The position numbers and the translations under genes are program-made. Of a stretch of 64,000 bases of DNA, positions 34,117 through 44,314 are shown piece after piece. Origin of the DNA: Sphingomonas sp. URHD0057 (lineage in GTDB: Bacteria > Pseudomonadota > Alphaproteobacteria > Sphingomonadales > Sphingomonadaceae); NCBI RefSeq assembly GCF_000620665.1, contig NZ_JIAU01000007.1, positions 62,001 to 126,000 of the forward strand, in the 5' to 3' direction. The stretch's first letter is position 1, and each line of letters starts with the position of its first letter. The notes beneath the pieces were generated by a model. That model searched no databases. It was given only the letters and a program-made list of their open reading frames with translations, and was not told the DNA's origin.

Positions 34117-35390
34117 GCCGGGGTGCTCGCCGCTCTCGGCCGCGGCACGGCGTTGGCCGTCTTGCGCACATATTTCGCGCTCTTGGCGAAGAACCATTCG
34201 AGAGCGCCGATCGGCTGACCGCCCGGCTTGTGCGCGAGAATGTGGTACATCCAGAAGATCAGCGCGGCGAGCAGGATGAAGGGCGACCAGAGCGCGACGG
34301 CCGGATCGATGTGGCCGCGGGCGCCGGCGGCCTCCGCATATTGGTTGATCTTGTGATAGGCGACCACGATCACGATGCCGACGAAGATGCCGAGGCCCGA
34401 GGAGCTGCGCTTGGGCGGAATTGCCAGCGCGATGGCGAGGAACGGCAGCATCAGCATCATCACGACTTCGACGAGCCGGAAGTTGAAGTGCGCCTGCGCT
34501 TCGAGGCGCTGGTGGCGGTCGGTGGCCCCGCCGCCATAGCCGAGCCGCCAAAGCTCATGCAGGTAGAGCTCGTCGGACTCGTTGCTGCCACGGCCGCGGA
34601 ACTGATCGATCATCGGCAGGCTGATCGGCAGATCATAGCTGTCGAAGGCGAGTGTGCGCGGGGTCGGGAACTTGGGCGAATCCTGGACCAGGCGGCCCTT
34701 GGACAGGCGGAACAGGATGACGTCGGCGTCGTCGGTCGAGAGGAACCGGCCGCGCTCGGCGGTCGCCGCGACGGATTCCCCCTTGCCCCGGTCCATCTGG
34801 ATGAAGATGCCCTGGAGCTGGGTTCCCTTATGCTCGCTGCGGTCGATGCGCAGCGTCAAATGCTTGCCGAGGCGGTTGAACTCCCCGACCTTGATCGCGG
34901 CGCCGAGTGCGCCGGACTTCAAGTCGAAGCGCAGCCCCTCATATTGATAGTGGGTGTAAGGCTCGAGATAGCCGACGATGAACAGGTTGAGCGCGGCGAG
35001 CGGGACCGCGTATAAGAACGGAACGCGGAGCAGCCGGTTGTAGCCGATGCCGATGCCGCGCAGCGCGTCGAGCTCGGACGACAGCGCGAGCTTGCGGAAG
35101 GCAAGCAGGATGCCGAGCATGAGGCCGATCGGGATGCCGAGCGAAAGATATTCCGGAAGCAGGTTGGCGAGCATCCGCCAGACGACGCTGACCGGCCCCC
35201 CGGCATCGACCACATATTGGAACAGCCGCAGCATCTTATCGAGCACCAGCAGCATCGCGGCGAGGACCAGCGAGCCGAACAAAGGAACGGCGATCGAGCG
35301 GGCAAGATAGCGGTCGATAAGGCCCAGCCGGCTCAACTTCGTCGTCCCACCACCATCATTTGGCCGCAAAGGCAGCCGAAACCAGAGCAT
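34113..35390 (-). CDS. lptF: LPS export ABC transporter permease LptF
   Basis: The 425-residue partner of LptG has the same six-helix plus jellyroll plan: DRYLARSIAVPLFGSLVLAAM, the LPEYLSLGIPIGLMLGILLAFRKLALSSELDA segment (positions about 80-110) and the C-terminal helices after LVEVVMMLMLPFLAIALA. A TTG at residue 19 (near 35336) is an alternative start that removes the weakly conserved N terminus. lptF and lptG are translationally coupled. The gene is divergent from the diacylglycerol-kinase-like gene, 63 bp between starts. Confidence 0.93.
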   Translation of the reverse strand: MLWFRLPLRPNDGGGTTKLSRLGLIDRYLARSIAVPLFGSLVLAAMLLVLDKMLRLFQYVVDAGGPVSVVWRMLANLLPEYLSLGIPIGLMLGILLAFRKLALSSELDALRGIGIGYNRLLRVPFLYAVPLAALNLFIVGYLEPYTHYQYEGLRFDLKSGALGAAIKVGEFNRLGKHLTLRIDRSEHKGTQLQGIFIQMDRGKGESVAATAERGRFLSTDDADVILFRLSKGRLVQDSPKFPTPRTLAFDSYDLPISLPMIDQFRGRGSNESDELYLHELWRLGYGGGATDRHQRLEAQAHFNFRLVEVVMMLMLPFLAIALAIPPKRSSSGLGIFVGIVIVVAYHKINQYAEAAGARGHIDPAVALWSPFILLAALIFWMYHILAHKPGGQPIGALEWFFAKSAKYVRKTANAVPRPRAASTPA

Positions 35391-35453
35391 GGACGGAATG
35401 CGCGCGCGGCGCGTCCGTCCGGCGATGCCTATAGCGAACCGGTCCGTGAATTC

Positions 35454-36518
35454 ATGCTGAAATCGAACTCAGAGACGGGAACAGGAGCCGCCGCCGCAGC
35501 GGGCGCCCTCGATTGCCCGTCGCCCGAGTGCCACAAGCATGTGTCGCGCCCGCGCATCGCGCTGCTCTCGAACCCCAAATCGACCGGCAACCTCGCCCAG
35601 CTACCGCGCATTCGCGAATATTGCGCCGACCATCCCGACGTCTTTCACTATGAGGTCGAGCACGCGCACCAGATCGGCGAGGCGATGAAGGTCATCGCCC
35701 GGGTCCGCCCCAAGGTGCTGGCCATCAACGGCGGCGACGGAACCGTGCAGGCGGCGCTGACCGAGATCCACAACGGCGGGCATTTCCGCGATTCACCGCC
35801 GCCCGTCGCCGTGCTTCCGAGCGGCAAGACCAATCTGATCGCGCTCGACCTCGGCGCGCGGACCGATCCGATCGAGACCCTCGAGCGGTTAATCCAGCTC
35901 GCGCGCACCGACCTCACGCCCCACACCGTCGCGCGCGAGCTCATCGCCCTGCGCCACGGCGACGGCGAGCAGCGGCCGGTGATTGGGATGTTCATGGGCG
36001 GTGCGGGCCTTGCCGACACGATGCTGTATTGCCGCGACAAGATCTATCCGCTGGGCCTGCCCAACGGTTTCGCGCACGTGCTGACCGCGGCTGCGTTCTT
36101 GATGAAGGTGTTCCTGGGCATGAAGGCGGGCTTCCTGCCGCCGGACCCGAAGCCGCTGCAGGTTTCGGTCCATGAAAATGGCGGAACGATCACCGGCCGG
36201 TTCTCGTTTCTCGCCGTGACTACGCTCGAGAAACTGCTGATCACCAATCCATTCGACGGACAGCGGTCGGGCTCGCTCAAGCTGCTTGCGATCGAGCAAC
36301 GGCCGTCATCGATGATCGGTGCGATTTTTGCGCATCTCAGCGGCAAGCTTGGCCGATCCCAAGTGCGCGGCGTGCATTTCGAGGAAGCCGACGGAATCAC
36401 CATCGAGAGCGACAGCTCCAACATCATTCTCGACGGCGAGACGTTCCACGCCGAGCGCGGACGACCGATTCATCTTCGTCCCGCAATGCCGCTGTCCTTC
36501 GTCAAGCTCGCCGCTTAA
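35454..36518 (+). CDS. Diacylglycerol/lipid kinase family protein (DAGKc)
   Basis: The 354-residue protein has a diacylglycerol kinase catalytic domain: IALLSNPKSTGN as the first strand/loop, the nucleotide-binding INGGDGTVQAALTEI at about residues 94-108, and PVAVLPSGKTNLIALDL, the GTAND-like loop in variant form. The C-terminal half has the second domain of LCB5/YegS-like kinases. It would phosphorylate a lipid alcohol such as diacylglycerol or, given the sphingolipid genes nearby, a sphingoid base. ATG 35454 lacks a clear ribosome-binding site. A nucleotidyltransferase-like gene follows 9 nt later. Confidence 0.85.
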   Translation: MLKSNSETGTGAAAAAGALDCPSPECHKHVSRPRIALLSNPKSTGNLAQLPRIREYCADHPDVFHYEVEHAHQIGEAMKVIARVRPKVLAINGGDGTVQAALTEIHNGGHFRDSPPPVAVLPSGKTNLIALDLGARTDPIETLERLIQLARTDLTPHTVARELIALRHGDGEQRPVIGMFMGGAGLADTMLYCRDKIYPLGLPNGFAHVLTAAAFLMKVFLGMKAGFLPPDPKPLQVSVHENGGTITGRFSFLAVTTLEKLLITNPFDGQRSGSLKLLAIEQRPSSMIGAIFAHLSGKLGRSQVRGVHFEEADGITIESDSSNIILDGETFHAERGRPIHLRPAMPLSFVKLAA

Positions 36519-36527
36519 AGGCCGGAC

Positions 36528-37385
36528 ATGACCGAGCTGCGCGAGCTGGTCGCCGAGGAATTAGCGGTGCCGGTCGACCCGCGCGTGACCGGAGTCGCGA
36601 AAGCAATTGCGGCGAGGCAGGGCGGCCCCGGCCGCGCGATTCTGTTCTACGGTTCATGCCTGCGCGAAGAAAAGCTCGAAGGGCGGATGCTCGATTTCTA
36701 CCTGATCGTGTCCGACTATCGCGCCGCTTATGCCAAACGGTGGCTGGCGCTCGCGAACCGGCTCGTTCCGCCCAACGTCTTCTATTTCGAGCACCACGGC
36801 CTGCGGGCCAAATATGCGGTCCTCAGCGAAGCCGACTTCTATCGCCTGAACGGGCCCGAGACGAGCAACGTCGCGGTGTGGGCGCGGTTTGCGCAGCCCG
36901 CGCGCCTGGTATGGGCGGCCGACGAGCTGGCGCGTGACCGCGCGATCGAGGCCGTGGCGCGCGCTGCGCCGACCCTGCTTGCAGCGGCCGGCAAGCGCGC
37001 GCGGGAAAAGCCGCTCGACTGGTGGCGGAGGGCCTTTTCACTCACCTATTCGGCCGAGCTTCGCGCCGAACGGCCCGGGCGACAGGCCTCGGTCGTTGAT
37101 GCCGACCGCGAGCGTTATGTCCGCTTCACCGAGCCGGCGGCGGCAGCGATCGACCGGCAGCCGCGCGCAAGTTGGCGATGGCGGCGGATCGAGGGGAAGA
37201 CGCTGTCGGTGCTGCGGCTGGCCAAGGCGAGCGCGACGTTCGCCGGCGGGCCGGACTATATCGCCTGGAAGATCAACCGCCACGCCGGGACCGAGATCGC
37301 GCTGAAACCGTGGCAGCGGAGACACCCCCTGCTCGCCGCGATCACCCTTTTGCCGCGGCTTTTGAGGTCCGGGGCGGTTCGCTAG
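36528..37385 (+). CDS. Nucleotidyltransferase-like protein resembling TAM41 (putative CDP-DAG synthase type)
   Basis: I do not recognise this 285-residue protein with certainty. Residues 38-64 read LFYGSCLREEK...LDFYLIVSDY, a GS-x(n)-D-F pattern of the nucleotidyltransferase fold. The following WLALANRLVPPNVFYFEHH and LRAKYAVLSEADF match in order the blocks of TAM41/Mmp37, the mitochondrial-type phosphatidate cytidylyltransferase (D-F-x-x-x-V, N-x-x-H/Y, K-Y-G/A-V). It lies 9 nt after a lipid kinase gene, which suits a lipid role (lipid to phospholipid to CDP-lipid). The last 44 bp overlap the convergent kinase gene. Confidence 0.55.
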   Translation: MTELRELVAEELAVPVDPRVTGVAKAIAARQGGPGRAILFYGSCLREEKLEGRMLDFYLIVSDYRAAYAKRWLALANRLVPPNVFYFEHHGLRAKYAVLSEADFYRLNGPETSNVAVWARFAQPARLVWAADELARDRAIEAVARAAPTLLAAAGKRAREKPLDWWRRAFSLTYSAELRAERPGRQASVVDADRERYVRFTEPAAAAIDRQPRASWRWRRIEGKTLSVLRLAKASATFAGGPDYIAWKINRHAGTEIALKPWQRRHPLLAAITLLPRLLRSGAVR

Positions 37386-39391: not shown

Positions 39392-40594
39392 TCAGCTTAT
39401 GCAACCCGTTGCACGGCCTGCCGCAGCGAACATGCCGAGAATCTCGCCGACTTGGTCCTCGGTGTGGAGCGCGCACAGCGAGCAGCGGAGCAAGGTCATG
39501 TTCGCGGGAGTCGCCGGCGGGCGGGCGAGATTGACGTACAGGCCCTCGTTGAGAAGCGCTTCCCACATCGCCGCGCCCGTTTCCAGGTCGGGCATGATGA
39601 CGGCGATGATCGCCGACTGGGGCTCGTCGGTCCCGAGGGTGAAGCCGAGCTGGCGGAGGCCGGCATGGAGGCGCTTCGAATTCTCCCACAAGTGAGCGCG
39701 CTTGTCGGCGCTGTCCATCAGCTTGCGGATCGAGGTCGCGGCAGTCGCGACGACCGAGGGCGGAAGCGAGGCGGTGAAGACGTACGGCCGGCAGACCAGC
39801 CGCAGGATCTCGAACTTCGGGTGGTTGGAGACGCAGAAGCCGCCGACGGTGCCGACCGACTTGGAGAAGGTGCCGATGATGAAGTCGACGTCGTCCATCA
39901 CCCTTTGGGCTTCCGCCACCCCCCGGCCGTGCTCGCCGATGAAGCCCATCGAGTGGGCTTCGTCGACCAGCACCATCGCGCCGTTCTCCTTCGAAACCCG
40001 AACCATGTCCTTGAGCGGTGCGACGTCGCCGAGCATCGAATAGACGCCTTCGAGGACGACCAGCTTGCCGGCGCCTTCGGGAATGCGCTTCAGCCGCTTC
40101 TCGAGCGCCTCGATATCGTTGTGGCGGAACGGCACGATCTGGGCATTGCCGAGCGCGCAGCCGTCGTAGATCGAGGCGTGGCTGTCGATGTCGAGGACGA
40201 TGTAATCCTCTTTGCCGGCAATGGTGGAGATGATTCCGAGGTTCGCCTGGTAACCGGTCGAGAAGACCATCGCGTGGTCCATGGCGTAGAAATCCATAAG
40301 CGCCTGCTCGACCGCCTTGTGCCCGACATAGGTGCCGTTGAGGACCCGGCTGCCGGTGGTGCCCGAGCCGAATTCGTCGAGCGCCTGCTTGCCCGCCGCG
40401 ACGACGTCGGGGTCGAAGGTCATGCCCATGTAATTATAGGTGCCGAGTAGGATCGTGGGTTTGCCGTTGCAGATCGCGACGGTCGGGCTTTCGACTTTCT
40501 CCATCACCAGGTTGAACGGGTCGGTGACCCCGGACTCGAGGAGCGTCTCGCGCATTTCGATCAGCGGATCGAATTTGGAAAGGAGATCAGTCAT
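39392..40594 (-). CDS. spt: Serine palmitoyltransferase
   Basis: The 400-residue alpha-oxoamine synthase condenses L-serine with palmitoyl thioester to 3-ketodihydrosphingosine, the first step of sphingolipid synthesis. It aligns along its whole length with the soluble Sphingomonas enzyme: TILLGTYNYMGMTFDPDV, DSHASIYDGC with the PLP-stacking His139, VDEAHSMGF, and GTFSKSVGTVGGF with the PLP lysine Lys245. The N terminus is about 20 residues shorter than the S. paucimobilis protein. The start overlaps the remnant of an acp gene; an intact acp lies 1.4 kb upstream. Confidence 0.96.
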   Translation of the reverse strand: MTDLLSKFDPLIEMRETLLESGVTDPFNLVMEKVESPTVAICNGKPTILLGTYNYMGMTFDPDVVAAGKQALDEFGSGTTGSRVLNGTYVGHKAVEQALMDFYAMDHAMVFSTGYQANLGIISTIAGKEDYIVLDIDSHASIYDGCALGNAQIVPFRHNDIEALEKRLKRIPEGAGKLVVLEGVYSMLGDVAPLKDMVRVSKENGAMVLVDEAHSMGFIGEHGRGVAEAQRVMDDVDFIIGTFSKSVGTVGGFCVSNHPKFEILRLVCRPYVFTASLPPSVVATAATSIRKLMDSADKRAHLWENSKRLHAGLRQLGFTLGTDEPQSAIIAVIMPDLETGAAMWEALLNEGLYVNLARPPATPANMTLLRCSLCALHTEDQVGEILGMFAAAGRATGCIS

Positions 40595-40670
40595 GCCCGG
40601 CTTCCCTACCTCCGGGAAGGGGCTCGATCAGTTCAAGAACTTTGGTGAGGGTCTGGGCTCGGTCGGGCAT
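40587..40670 (-). pseudogene. Remnant of a second acyl carrier protein gene (5' end only)
   Basis: The minus strand from ATG 40670 reads MPDRAQTLTKVLELIEP, matching the start of the intact acp at 42230 (MSDRQETYAKTVELIAP) at 9 of 17 positions, then jumps to LPGGREAGHD and stops, with the stop overlapping the spt start. The upstream DNA is also shared: the 19-mer TTCGCAACGCAATGGGGCG lies 30-31 bp before both start codons (40701-40719 and 42260-42278). The ACP core with the DSL phosphopantetheine site is absent, so this is a truncated copy. It may be translated as a 27-residue leader coupled to spt. Confidence 0.75.
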
Positions 40671-40890
40671 GCAGCTTTCCGTTAGTGACCGGCCGGTGCT
40701 TTCGCAACGCAATGGGGCGGCAATGCGGCGGCGGTCGGGTAGGGAAGCCCGTATGTCTGCATTGGGCGGAAAGCTGACATTAGCGTCCACTGATCGAAGC
40801 TGCGATGCTTCCCGTCGCGAAACGATTGTCGCGAGGCCCACGCGCATCGATGGATGAGCGAACGCCCACCCTATCCTCGAGGAGGGACCC

Positions 40891-41721
40891 ATGCATGGCT
40901 GCGCTATCGCCGCGTCGTCGCTTCTGTCTGCTTTGGCACCGGCGAAGGCCGAGGTCCTGCCCCACGATTTGCATCCAATCGCCACTGCGACGGCTCCTGC
41001 ACTTTCATCCGCTGGGTCTGGCGCCGGTCAGCTAACGACGACGGTTCATGTCGGCGACGGAACGCTCGATGGGTCGTTCCTCGAGCCATACAACAATGCA
41101 TGGATGTACAACGCGAAGACTGCCGACGGCACGCTTCACCCACAAGGCATCTGGACCGACCACATGCAATGGAGCGTGCTGGACGGAAAACGCGTGATGT
41201 TGCGCGTCCAGGGGACGACTTTCCTCAATGGCAGCGCCAACACGATCGTCAATTTTTTCGAGCCGCGCACCCTGGCGCCGATCAAGTCGGAAACGCATGG
41301 CGTCGACGGGACGGTCTTTCGGCGCACCTTTGATGGCGCGCACGTCACCTCCGTCACGCTTGCCGGTGCCGGCGACAAGAACGATCCCGACGCCGCCGAT
41401 CTTCCGCAAGCGGTCTACGACTTTAACGGCGGAATGTATGGAATCCTTCTGGCCTCGCTTCCGCTCAGGAAGGGACTCAAGGGCACCCTGCCCGCGATCG
41501 CCGACCGAGATGCGACGCTGATGGCCGAGCCCTTCGAAGTTCTCGGCAGGGAGACCGTGCATGCGGGTGCTCGGGGAAACCTGTCCGCGTGGGTCGTCGA
41601 AAGCACCCGTCCCGGCGAGTACACGATGACGTTCTGGCTGAGCAGAAGCGCACCGTACATCATCAGGCTGGTGATGAATGACGTAGCCAATCACCGGGTG
41701 CTGACCTGGGACATGCTGTAG
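40891..41721 (+). CDS. Hypothetical exported protein inserted between acp and spt
   Basis: The 276-residue product has a signal peptide (MHGCAIAASSLLSALAPAKA) and a beta-rich mature part (DHMQWSVLDGKRVMLRVQGT, SANTIVNFFEPRTLAPIKSE, YTMTFWLSRSAPYIIRLVM) that recalls the DUF3108-type periplasmic sandwich, though I cannot assign it firmly. A GGAGGG site precedes ATG 40891. It is the only plus-strand gene in a minus-strand block, flanked by remnants of acp on one side and spt on the other, which marks it as an insertion or the product of rearrangement. Confidence 0.75.
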   Translation: MHGCAIAASSLLSALAPAKAEVLPHDLHPIATATAPALSSAGSGAGQLTTTVHVGDGTLDGSFLEPYNNAWMYNAKTADGTLHPQGIWTDHMQWSVLDGKRVMLRVQGTTFLNGSANTIVNFFEPRTLAPIKSETHGVDGTVFRRTFDGAHVTSVTLAGAGDKNDPDAADLPQAVYDFNGGMYGILLASLPLRKGLKGTLPAIADRDATLMAEPFEVLGRETVHAGARGNLSAWVVESTRPGEYTMTFWLSRSAPYIIRLVMNDVANHRVLTWDML

Positions 41722-41786
41722 CCGAGTTTTGGAGCGACCTCGGTCCACGCTTGGGCGAACCTGGAGCGCGCCTGAAGCGCTCGGCC

Positions 41787-41893
41787 TTACGCACAGATAA
41801 CATTGGGCACCGGCGAAGGATCGGCGTAGCCGGCGCCGACGAGGTCCTTTCGCTGCTGGATCAGCGGGTCGAACTTGGAGAGAGGTCGGTCAC
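41787..41893 (-). pseudogene. Remnant of a second spt-like gene (5' end, frameshifted)
   Basis: From GTG 41893 the minus strand reads VTDL, then after a single missing base LSKFDPLIQQRKDLVGAGYADP before running into a stop at 41787. The intact spt begins MTDLLSKFDPLIEMRETLLESGVTDP. The ribosome-binding region GAGGTAGGGAAG is shared by both copies (41894-41905 and about 40600-40612 on the plus strand). Nothing resembling the catalytic part of an alpha-oxoamine synthase follows. Confidence 0.75.
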
Positions 41894-41903
41894 TTCCCTA
41901 CCT

Positions 41904-41973
41904 CGTCATTCCCGCGAAAGCGGGAACCCATATTTCCTTCTTCAGCTGGGTCCCCGCTTTCGCGGGGATGACG
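41904..41973. repeat. Paired palindromic repeats, family A
   Basis: CGTCATTCCCGC-gaaa-GCGGGAACCCA (41904-41930) and TGGGTCCCCGC-tttc-GCGGGGATGACG (41947-41973) are each palindromic and are near-perfect inverted copies of each other. They are the tail-to-tail pair typical of REP doublets. They lie in the 95-bp gap between the intact acp and the spt remnant. Confidence 0.88.
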
Positions 41974-41987
41974 AAAAGCGAGGCGGG

Positions 41988-42230
41988 TCACGCCTGCAGC
42001 CGCTGGAGCGCGTCGACCAGCTGGCCGACGGTTTCGATCTCGGCCTGCAAGTTCATAGAGATGAGGACGTCGAACTCGTCCTCGACGTTGGCGACGAAGT
42101 CGAGCACGGTGAGGCTGTCCCATTCGAGATCCTGGGCGAAACGCGTCGCCTCGGTAATCGCGATGCCCTTCTTGTTGAATGGCGCGATCAGCTCGACGGT
42201 TTTGGCGTAAGTTTCCTGGCGGTCGGACAT
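41988..42230 (-). CDS. Acyl carrier protein of the sphingolipid region
   Basis: The 80-residue acidic protein has the ACP fold, with the phosphopantetheine attachment serine in EWDSLTVLDFVANVEDEF. It differs from the fatty-acid AcpP by MSDRQETYAKTVELIAP at the start and the KKGIAITEATRFAQD loop. Its location upstream of spt suggests it delivers the acyl group to serine palmitoyltransferase, as reported for the dedicated ACP of the alphaproteobacterial sphingolipid pathway. ATG 42230 is chosen by homology; an upstream start adds 12 basic residues. Confidence 0.9.
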   Translation of the reverse strand: MSDRQETYAKTVELIAPFNKKGIAITEATRFAQDLEWDSLTVLDFVANVEDEFDVLISMNLQAEIETVGQLVDALQRLQA

Positions 42231-42293
42231 GGCTCGCTCGTTAGTGCGGGTGAGCCGCCTTCGCAACGCAATGGGGCGCGATTGAGGCGCTCA

Positions 42294-43358
42294 TCAGGCC
42301 GTCACCGCATAGTCGTCGCCGTAGAATTTGCTGGTGCTTCGCGTGTGGAAGGCGATCGCCTTGATCGGCGGGTATTTGGGGTCGCCCAAGCCGGAGAGCA
42401 CTTCGAGCTGCTCATCCTCCCAGACGTAGACCGCCATCGGGAAGGAGACTCGCGGGGCCGTGAGGTGCGAGCTATTGCCAGGCTTGCCGACGCGATGGGT
42501 GGTCGAGGGCAGGCGGTCGTTGCTGATGCGCTGCAGATAATCGCCGGTGTTGATGATGATCGAGCCGCGCGGCGCGTTGAGACGCACCCACTTGCGGCTC
42601 AGGTGGTTCCAGACCTGCAGGCCCTCGACCTCGGTGGCGGGGAGGATGGTTAACAAATCGACGTCCTCGTGGCCGAGCAGCCGGCCCGCGCCCGAAGCGT
42701 CCTGGTCGCGCGTCATCGGCGGGTAGTAATTGAGGCGCAGGCCGAAGTTGGTCGCGGTCAGCCGGCGGTCGTAGACGTGAGGGTCGACGCCGAGGCCCTG
42801 GAAGATCGCTTGGGCGATCGGCTTGAACAGGGCCTCGTGGGCGAGGACGAGGCGGCGGAAGTGCGGCTCATCATCGGGACGTGGCCAGTAATCGGCGGCG
42901 TTGAACGGCACCTCGCGGTGCTGCGGGATGTCGAACGCACGGCGGCACCACACCCAGCCTTCGACCAGGTCGGGGTGGATGTCGCTGGTCTCCTCGATCG
43001 GGAAATAGCCCTGGTTGACCGAGCCGTGGCGCCGGGCACGAAAGCGCATCTTTTCTTCGAGCGAAGTGGACGTGAAGACGTCGAGCACGCGGTCGTGGAT
43101 TTCGTCGTACAGCGCCGCTTCGACGCCGTGGCCGGTGAGGATCGCGAAGCCGATTTCGCCCAGCGCCTGCGCGAAGTCGTCGGCGAAGCCCGCTCTCTCC
43201 GCCTCGTTGCCGTGGAGGAAGCGGGCGAAGTCCAGTGTGGCGATCTCGTAATCCTCGTCGAATTCGTCGCTGTCGTGCTCGGCAAGGCGATAAGTGTGCG
43301 CCTTCTGCACCTGATCATACTTGGCGAACTCGCGGTTGAGGGCCTGAGGGTCGGTCAT
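42294..43358 (-). CDS. Fe(II)/2-oxoglutarate-dependent dioxygenase (isopenicillin N synthase family)
   Basis: The 354-residue enzyme has an N-terminal DIOX_N domain (LDFARFLHGNEAERAGF, IGFAILTGHGV) and a C-terminal jelly roll with the iron ligands His and Asp of LGHEDVDLLTIL and the distal His of STTHRV. The 2-oxoglutarate-binding Arg-x-Ser is in APRVSFPM. It would hydroxylate or oxidise a small substrate. ATG 43358 overlaps the TauE-like gene's stop by 4 nt. The substrate is unknown; its place 63 bp upstream of acp raises the possibility of a lipid-linked substrate. Confidence 0.92.
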   Translation of the reverse strand: MTDPQALNREFAKYDQVQKAHTYRLAEHDSDEFDEDYEIATLDFARFLHGNEAERAGFADDFAQALGEIGFAILTGHGVEAALYDEIHDRVLDVFTSTSLEEKMRFRARRHGSVNQGYFPIEETSDIHPDLVEGWVWCRRAFDIPQHREVPFNAADYWPRPDDEPHFRRLVLAHEALFKPIAQAIFQGLGVDPHVYDRRLTATNFGLRLNYYPPMTRDQDASGAGRLLGHEDVDLLTILPATEVEGLQVWNHLSRKWVRLNAPRGSIIINTGDYLQRISNDRLPSTTHRVGKPGNSSHLTAPRVSFPMAVYVWEDEQLEVLSGLGDPKYPPIKAIAFHTRSTSKFYGDDYAVTA

Positions 43359-44254
43359 GACGCGGCCACCGCCGCGGTCGCCGTCTCGGCCCGCTGCTCC
43401 CGCCGTCCGACCAAAGCGGCGCGGACCATCACCGCGGCAGCGTAGAGAACCACCACGAACACCAGCCAGCGCAGCACCTCGAGCGGCATCGACTTGACGA
43501 TGAACGCGGCGACCAGCACCCCCGGTACGCCGCCGATGGCGAGGCCGAGGACGATTCTGAGGTCGACCTGGCCGATGGCGATGTGGCGCACGCTCGCGCC
43601 CGCCCCCATCAGCGAGCCGCCGGCGGCCATGATTGGGAAGCACAGCCGCGGATCCATGCCCATCAAGCTCAGCAAAACGAGCGTCGGGGCGTAGTTGCCG
43701 ACTCCGAAATTGGCGAGGATGCCGAAGCCGAAGCTGGCGACGATGGCCACGATCGTCGGGCCAAGCGGCAGTCCGGTTGCGGTTCCCCCACCCGGGAATA
43801 GGTGAAGGTTGGTCATGGCATAAGCGGTGGCGGCAAGCAGTAGCCCAACGGCGACGATCAGCTGCACGATCCAGACTCGGGCGCGAACGACCAGCGGCGC
43901 TCCGATCAGTCCGCCGACCATGGTCGCGATGGCGCAGCCGAACAGCAGCACCGGATCGACGAACACTCCGAGCAGGATGAGGAAGACGATGCTCTCGACC
44001 ATCACCGGCCCGGTCAGGCCGACGATCATGGTCGGCGGGATCAGCCGGTCGGGGACCATCTTGCGGAACTTGAACCAGGCCGCGGTCGGGGCGAACGAGC
44101 CGATCCCAAGCGTATCGAAGAAGTTGACGACTGCGCCGAGGCCGAGCGCCTCGACGTTCGGGCGGACGCGCTGGGCGATGGCGGCGCGGGTGAGTGCGAT
44201 GGCGTAGGCGAGGATCCCGAGGGCCAACGGAATCAAGAGCGCGATCAGCAGCAT
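43355..44254 (-). CDS. TauE/SafE-family membrane permease
   Basis: The 299-residue protein with about eight transmembrane helices belongs to the TauE/SafE family of anion (sulfite/organosulfonate) exporters: GLGAVVNFFDTLGIGSFAP in the first repeat and FGFGILANFGVGNYAP in the second are the paired family signatures. The start is uncertain: ATG 44254 is used; GTG 44284 and TTG 44293 lie in or against the upstream terminator. It is translationally coupled to the dioxygenase, so it may move that enzyme's substrate or product. Confidence 0.85.
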   Translation of the reverse strand: MLLIALLIPLALGILAYAIALTRAAIAQRVRPNVEALGLGAVVNFFDTLGIGSFAPTAAWFKFRKMVPDRLIPPTMIVGLTGPVMVESIVFLILLGVFVDPVLLFGCAIATMVGGLIGAPLVVRARVWIVQLIVAVGLLLAATAYAMTNLHLFPGGGTATGLPLGPTIVAIVASFGFGILANFGVGNYAPTLVLLSLMGMDPRLCFPIMAAGGSLMGAGASVRHIAIGQVDLRIVLGLAIGGVPGVLVAAFIVKSMPLEVLRWLVFVVVLYAAAVMVRAALVGRREQRAETATAAVAAS

Positions 44255-44287
44255 TGCAGCGGCACGTTTGGCATGAATGGTCACCTG

Positions 44288-44314
44288 AAACAAAAATGCC
44301 CGCCAGAGGCGGGC
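44288..44314 (-). terminator. Rho-independent terminator after the obgE-SDR genes
   Basis: On the minus strand GCCCGCC-tct-GGCGGGC (44314-44298) is followed by ATTTTTGTTT (44297-44288). It ends the transcript that comes from obgE and the SDR gene and separates it from the TauE-dioxygenase-acp genes. Confidence 0.9.

Follow-up and report, generated by a model that had tools for sequence, protein, structure and literature searches.

The genes for an acyl carrier protein (acp) and for serine palmitoyltransferase (spt), a normally adjacent pair that serves the first step in making sphingolipids, lie close to each other in Sphingomonas sp. URHD0057, in a 64,000-nt stretch of contig NZ_JIAU01000007.1, which we call the window and to which all coordinates refer. 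The locus is read on the minus strand, from 42,300 to 39,392. Here the acp-spt module is present as two incomplete copies, one of which retains acp and the other spt. When the two are compared below, copy 1 consists of the start of the intact acp (acp1) and a fragment of spt, and copy 2 of an acp stub and the start of the intact spt. In the order of reading, the parts of the locus are as follows.

42260..42278, minus strand: copy 1 of the conserved 19-mer CGCCCCATTGCGTTGCGAA, in the promoter-like block before the intact acp
42239..42246, minus strand: second block CACTAACG, copy 1, 13 nt past the 19-mer
41988..42230, minus strand: intact acp, encoding a specialised, AcpR-like acyl carrier protein (PP-binding match)
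41903..41974, minus strand: pair of repetitive extragenic palindromic (REP) elements, an inverted repeat with 28-nt arms, shortly 3' of acp
41893..41904, minus strand: spt leader GAGGTAGGGAAG, copy 1
41893 to about 41805, minus strand: 5' fragment of spt, about 28 codons, frameshifted, with a GTG start, copy 1
40891..41721, plus strand: exported-protein gene of 276 codons, with a start that resembles a signal peptide by eye
40753..40778, minus strand: member of a second dispersed repeat family (TTCCACCCATTGCAGACAT type), bordering copy 2
40701..40719, minus strand: conserved 19-mer, copy 2, identical to that of copy 1
40680..40687, minus strand: second block CACTAACG, copy 2, at the same 13-nt spacing
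40587..40670, minus strand: acp stub with its ATG at 40670, in which 17 codons of acp run on into the spt leader, a 27-codon frame with its stop at 40587
40601..40612, minus strand: spt leader GAGGTAGGGAAG, copy 2
39392..40594, minus strand: intact serine palmitoyltransferase gene

The identity of the two intact genes is clear. The product of spt scores 804.9 bits (cut-off 670) with the NCBIfam model NF047603 for alphaproteobacterial serine palmitoyltransferase (SPT) and aligns over residues 3-399 to PDB entry 2x8u (E 2.6e-203); the alignment contains GTFSKSVGT, which we take to be the motif of the SPT lysine that binds pyridoxal phosphate. The gene is single in this genome, the second match (31% identity over residues 45-385) being a distant member of the family. 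The product of acp matches the Pfam PP-binding domain (PF00550, E 3.9e-7) and holds the serine of a DSL motif in LEWDSLTVLD, presumably the carrier-protein serine; the intact gene is the sole match in this genome at E 1e-15. The working genes are not adjacent: 1,393 bases, with the opposite-strand gene inside, separate the intact acp from the only spt.

The two partial copies are homologous, and their losses are complementary, as in tandem duplication-random loss. In local alignment the acp regions scored 51, where the highest of 500 dinucleotide shuffles reached 26 (98.3 against 64.6 under looser scoring), and the spt starts scored 49, where the highest of as many shuffles reached 28 (101.3 against 79.2). 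The 19-mer ends 29 nt before the start codon of acp and 30 nt before the ATG of the stub, whose frame closes 8 nt inside spt. The spt fragment of copy 1 is 2 nt short near codons 4-5 in comparison with relatives and is therefore frameshifted. An earlier note on this stretch had described the same arrangement, and on re-reading the order, positions and letters of all its parts proved correct, including the 19-mer common to both acp copies and the leader GAGGTAGGGAAG common to both spt copies. It had named alignment scores at the level of shuffled sequence as a ground for rejecting its reading, and both partial copies score far above that level when aligned. Its view that the intact acp and the intact spt come from different copies, each with one working gene, is borne out by this anatomy.

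We compared the locus with a genus set of 71 genomes, this one included, in which the distance between acp and spt could be assessed in 68 of the 70 others (69 loci, since G093 has two). Of the remaining genomes, G036 gave neither gene and G085 gave only a truncated spt at a contig start; six of the 69 loci have an spt truncated where the contig stops, and in G007 the gene is frameshifted. G007 is a single-contig genome in which spt occupies two frames, residues 1-256 and 247-399 (L127, 6537-7732), either by a true frameshift or by a sequencing error. In all 68 assessable genomes acp lies no more than 141 nt from spt: the genes overlap at 21 loci and are separated by 0-10 nt at 17, by 19-77 nt at 25 and by 97-141 nt at 6. 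The synteny comparison suggested by the earlier note thus yields an uninterrupted pair in every assessable relative, and none of the 68 has the split arrangement, with or without conserved short frames. A wider set of 109 loci (L003-L111), by title mostly from sphingomonads and with some genomes present twice, agrees with this picture: 108 of them have acp upstream of spt, no more than 183 nt away in 107, and the remaining locus, L109, is truncated at the end of its contig. Among these loci, an opposite-strand gene together with fragments of both partners is found between acp and spt only in the window. The sole other large gap among the 108 loci with both genes is one of 754 nt in L076 (5250-5958), which holds two co-directional frames.

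Both genes are under purifying selection. The intact acp is 62-89% identical to the acp of the 69 genus loci, each of which precedes spt, and a tree places it among them. In comparisons with five relatives, nonsynonymous divergence (dN) of acp is 0.07-0.10 and synonymous divergence (dS) 0.41-0.67 (dN/dS 0.11-0.23); for spt, dN is 0.055-0.063 and dS 0.48-0.68.

The sequence shared by the two copies upstream of acp is not private to this genome. Of 70 acp upstream regions (two of them from this genome; the row G093B was too short and was dropped), 55 contain the 19-mer with no more than 5 mismatches, and in 53 of these 55 it lies 28-31 nt before the start codon. Ten of the 71 genomes carry an exact 18-mer of the block, at 11 sites in total; compared with acp positions, all 11 sites are directly before acp, and this genome alone has two of them. 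The two copies in the window agree at 27 of 27 positions in the two blocks, at 4 of 13 in the spacer and at 0 of 8 after it (an ungapped comparison, with blocks picked after inspection). The 19-mer belongs to a conserved, promoter-like block upstream of acp and is not neutral sequence or a mere scar of duplication. We read it, together with CACTAACG, as the putative acp-spt promoter; if CACTAACG serves as the -10 element, the start site would fall at or near the acp ATG, giving a leaderless or nearly leaderless message. The succession of CGCCCCATTGCGTTGCGAA and, 13 nt on, CACTAACG would then be a short element with a possible role in controlling the committed step of sphingolipid synthesis in the genus. 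Candidates for a second promoter block in G016 (contig 63) and G088 (contig 104), two of the inexact 18-mer sites away from acp that are counted below, were read and rejected, as neither has an acp frame downstream.

Because the 19-mer sits within this conserved block and its exact 18-mers occur only before acp, the acp stub most likely survives as a promoter and short leader frame for spt. The stub is therefore probably useful and not merely decayed, a point that the earlier note missed. We consider it probable that the acpR-spt operon has been split into two partial copies, each half standing behind its own copy of the promoter. Copy 1 would have retained acp and lost spt beyond the first codons, and copy 2 would have retained spt and lost acp except for the promoter and the first 17 codons. 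The intact acp would be transcribed from its own promoter, with the transcript ending at or near the REP hairpin, for which folding of the RNA gives -62.3 kcal/mol (z -8.03). A scan of the region for terminator-like sites found 2, which is the chance level (1.4 in shuffles). Transcription of spt would start at the second promoter copy and pass through the stub, which would act as a 27-codon leader frame running into the start of spt, much as acp itself runs into spt in many relatives; the stub-spt overlap resembles the acp-spt overlap at 21 of the 69 genus loci. The carrier protein would then serve the enzyme in trans. The arrangement suggests that the stub is both transcribed and translated and that the AcpR-like protein still cooperates with SPT. 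The suggestion in the earlier note that acp and spt are now separate transcription units is likely in view of the 1.4 kb between the working genes and the opposite-strand gene within it, as far as transcription can be judged from gene order.

Several observations weigh against this interpretation. In the other 15 of the 70 upstream regions, the 19-mer is matched with 6 to 8 mismatches at best, a range that overlaps the one in shuffled upstream regions (6 to 10, mode 9). When up to 2 mismatches are allowed, the 18-mer is found at 40 sites in 35 of the 71 genomes, and 10 of these sites are elsewhere than before acp (30 are before it; a reversed-pattern control gave 6). A scan of 40400-42400 for the sigma-70 consensus returned 0 promoters, so that the block is promoter-like by conservation and position alone; alphaproteobacterial promoters often depart from that consensus. 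If the stub came from another allele, the differences in the spacer are older than the split, and the blocks may then be identical because they are young and not because selection has kept them so since the split. The overlap between the stub frame and spt is weak evidence as well, since both other frames meet a stop codon within the start of spt, ATGACTGA.

The stub and the spt fragment could also be dead scars, with spt driven by read-through from acp or by some other promoter. The frameshift and divergence of the spt fragment fit this explanation, as does the empty sigma-70 scan; however, read-through would have to cross the REP hairpin and then run antisense through the 831-bp exported-protein gene, and the block before the stub is intact, while its exact copies in the genus are dedicated to acp. 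We therefore regard this explanation as unlikely. An artefact of assembly, in which two alleles of a mixed culture were merged into one contig, would account for copies that differ like alleles of different species, but it is very improbable: the contig is 207,615 bases long, the genome is 99.85% complete and 0.03% contaminated, its only acp and only spt are both at this locus, and the exported-protein family has three further members elsewhere in it. Least credible of all is that the short frames are real, conserved genes. The 27-codon frame of the stub is indeed open, but the spt fragment is frameshifted and the arrangement recurs in 0 of the 68 assessable genomes. An invertible promoter between the 12-base inverted repeats at 40599-40610 and 40738-40749 was considered and rejected, because repeats of this kind are at chance level (10 pairs in the window, two of them within the REP pair, against 1 to 14 in 30 shuffles).

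How the second copy arose is a separate question. The earlier note called the locus a decayed tandem duplication, in which the module would have doubled within this lineage and each copy would later have lost one gene. As stated, this claim finds no support, because by identity and residue type the two copies are closer to different relatives than to each other. They agree at 118 of 178 sites, whereas copy 1 agrees with G031 at 145 of 179 and copy 2 with G073 at 137 of 179. Over its 17 residues the stub agrees with acp1 at 9, with G016 at 15 and with G005 at 14, and is thus of the G016/G005 residue type; its dS is 1.2 against acp1 and 0.39 against G005, over only 16 codons. Five overlapping tests, each on 26 rows, put the cost of a tree that holds the copies together at 8.9 to 18.3 log-likelihood units. 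In the approximately unbiased (AU) test, the tree with sister copies had p values of 0.0085 and 0.214 and, after removal of a few non-homologous columns at the end of the stub, of 0.080, 0.189 and 0.076. One test in five thus rejects it, with p rising from 0.0085 to 0.080 once those columns are gone, and the other four do not reject it at the 5% level; these results are suggestive, not decisive. On balance, the second copy seems more likely to be an acquired or old allele, perhaps a mosaic one, than a recent tandem duplicate, which these comparisons disfavour.

On the other side stands the leader GAGGTAGGGAAG, which lies beside both spt starts in the window but was found within 60 nt before spt at 0 of the 69 genus loci; it favours duplication and speaks against an acquired or old allele. 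The fact that the acp stub and the spt start of copy 2 point to different relatives counts on this side as well. In addition, genome G016, a metagenome-assembled genome (MAG) that is 72% complete, has two different spt genes at contig ends (L123, 1-951, and L124, 4469-5554), which are sisters in the tree (100/97), one of them on a longer branch. One is beside acp, epimerase and obg and the other beside a histidine kinase gene, and the stretch between them is not assembled. Since these genes are sisters, duplication of spt within a lineage may occur in this group. The pair may represent an unsplit double module in a relative, or else mixed strains; with both genes on contig ends of so incomplete a MAG, we do not count it as an example of an uninterrupted double module. 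Taken together, tandem duplication within this lineage is a possible but doubtful origin. Trees of the flanking genes (epimerase, obg, acp, the two halves of spt and histidine kinase) revealed no breakpoint, and the placement of this genome in them is not fixed.

Returning to an acquired or old allele as the source of copy 2, a tentative scenario is that a related allele and the exported-protein gene arrived together and split the operon, after which the truncated acp was selected as a portable promoter and leader frame for spt. If this were true, co-regulation would have outlived the operon because the promoter, and not the gene, was copied.

According to a survey of Rhodobacteria, acpR and spt form an operon; the survey gives Caulobacter CC_1163-CC_1162 and Sphingomonas wittichii Swit_3899-Swit_3900 as examples and reports that the SPTs of three species prefer acyl-AcpR (PMC9386255). 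The locus in the window matches the operon described there in its two gene families, their order and their strand, but its genes are separated by 1.4 kb that contain an opposite-strand gene and fragments of both partners. It also resembles the acp-spt loci of the genus, most of which have a similar promoter-like block before acp. Tandem duplication-random loss, best known from mitochondrial gene order, likewise leaves two copies of a block with a complementary part lost from each; here, however, the copies are not mutual closest relatives by identity or residue type, and an unrelated gene lies between them. A xenologous or allelic second copy after recombination is another known route by which a locus can come to hold neighbouring alleles, each closer to other species, as seen here. 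A donor was not found in our data, however, and the 12-base leader in both copies points to some shared history. Operon break-up is reportedly treated in 'The life-cycle of operons' (2006). The loss of adjacency in a conserved operon is of that kind, but in the window each half carries the same promoter-like block, and co-regulation could therefore persist. A limited literature search, judged by titles and the openings of abstracts, found no report of a split acp-spt pair, and a search on sphingomonad promoters found nothing on Sphingomonas itself. We regard the locus as a neat and testable case of operon splitting, mechanistically ordinary and not a new kind of system. With a promoter-like block in front of each half, the split pair offers a natural experiment on whether the two genes need one transcript or only equal regulation.

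The exported-protein gene has three paralogues in this genome (L132, L133 and L134; 33-38% identity). Searches with the single sequence found no homologue in the 70 other genomes of the genus or in 298 other genomes of the phylum, whereas a profile built from the four paralogues matched 16 of 396 genomes of the order, namely this one and 15 weaker matches, two of them within the genus (G078 and G091). With matches in so few genomes, this is a patchy accessory family. The protein has no Pfam or NCBIfam match, a search of the profile against the PDB gave nothing meaningful (best E 0.37), and a structure prediction from the single sequence was of no use (mean predicted local distance difference test score 36.9). 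A mobile-element origin was considered and rejected, as no match was found in plasmids or viral contigs. The REP family is dispersed in the genome, with 18 matches at up to 2 mismatches (control 0). The same holds for the second repeat, of the TTCCACCCATTGCAGACAT type, which the earlier note had overlooked: when up to 3 mismatches are allowed, it matches at 26 places in this genome, and a reversed-pattern control at 0. Related matches of 28-42 nt occur in other genomes of the genus.

On the other side of acp, genes for a 2-oxoglutarate (2OG)-Fe(II) oxygenase and a TauE-family protein (42294-44293, minus strand) separate acp from the epimerase gene, which in many relatives immediately precedes acp. 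The same oxygenase and TauE-family genes are present in L040 (76% and 71% identity), where they end 2.9 kb before acp, and the site between the epimerase gene and acp looks prone to insertion. Near spt, a gene for a DAGK_cat lipid kinase adjoins a 285-codon gene without a Pfam match (35295-37385, plus strand); by comparison with Caulobacter, these may be a ceramide kinase and its partner.

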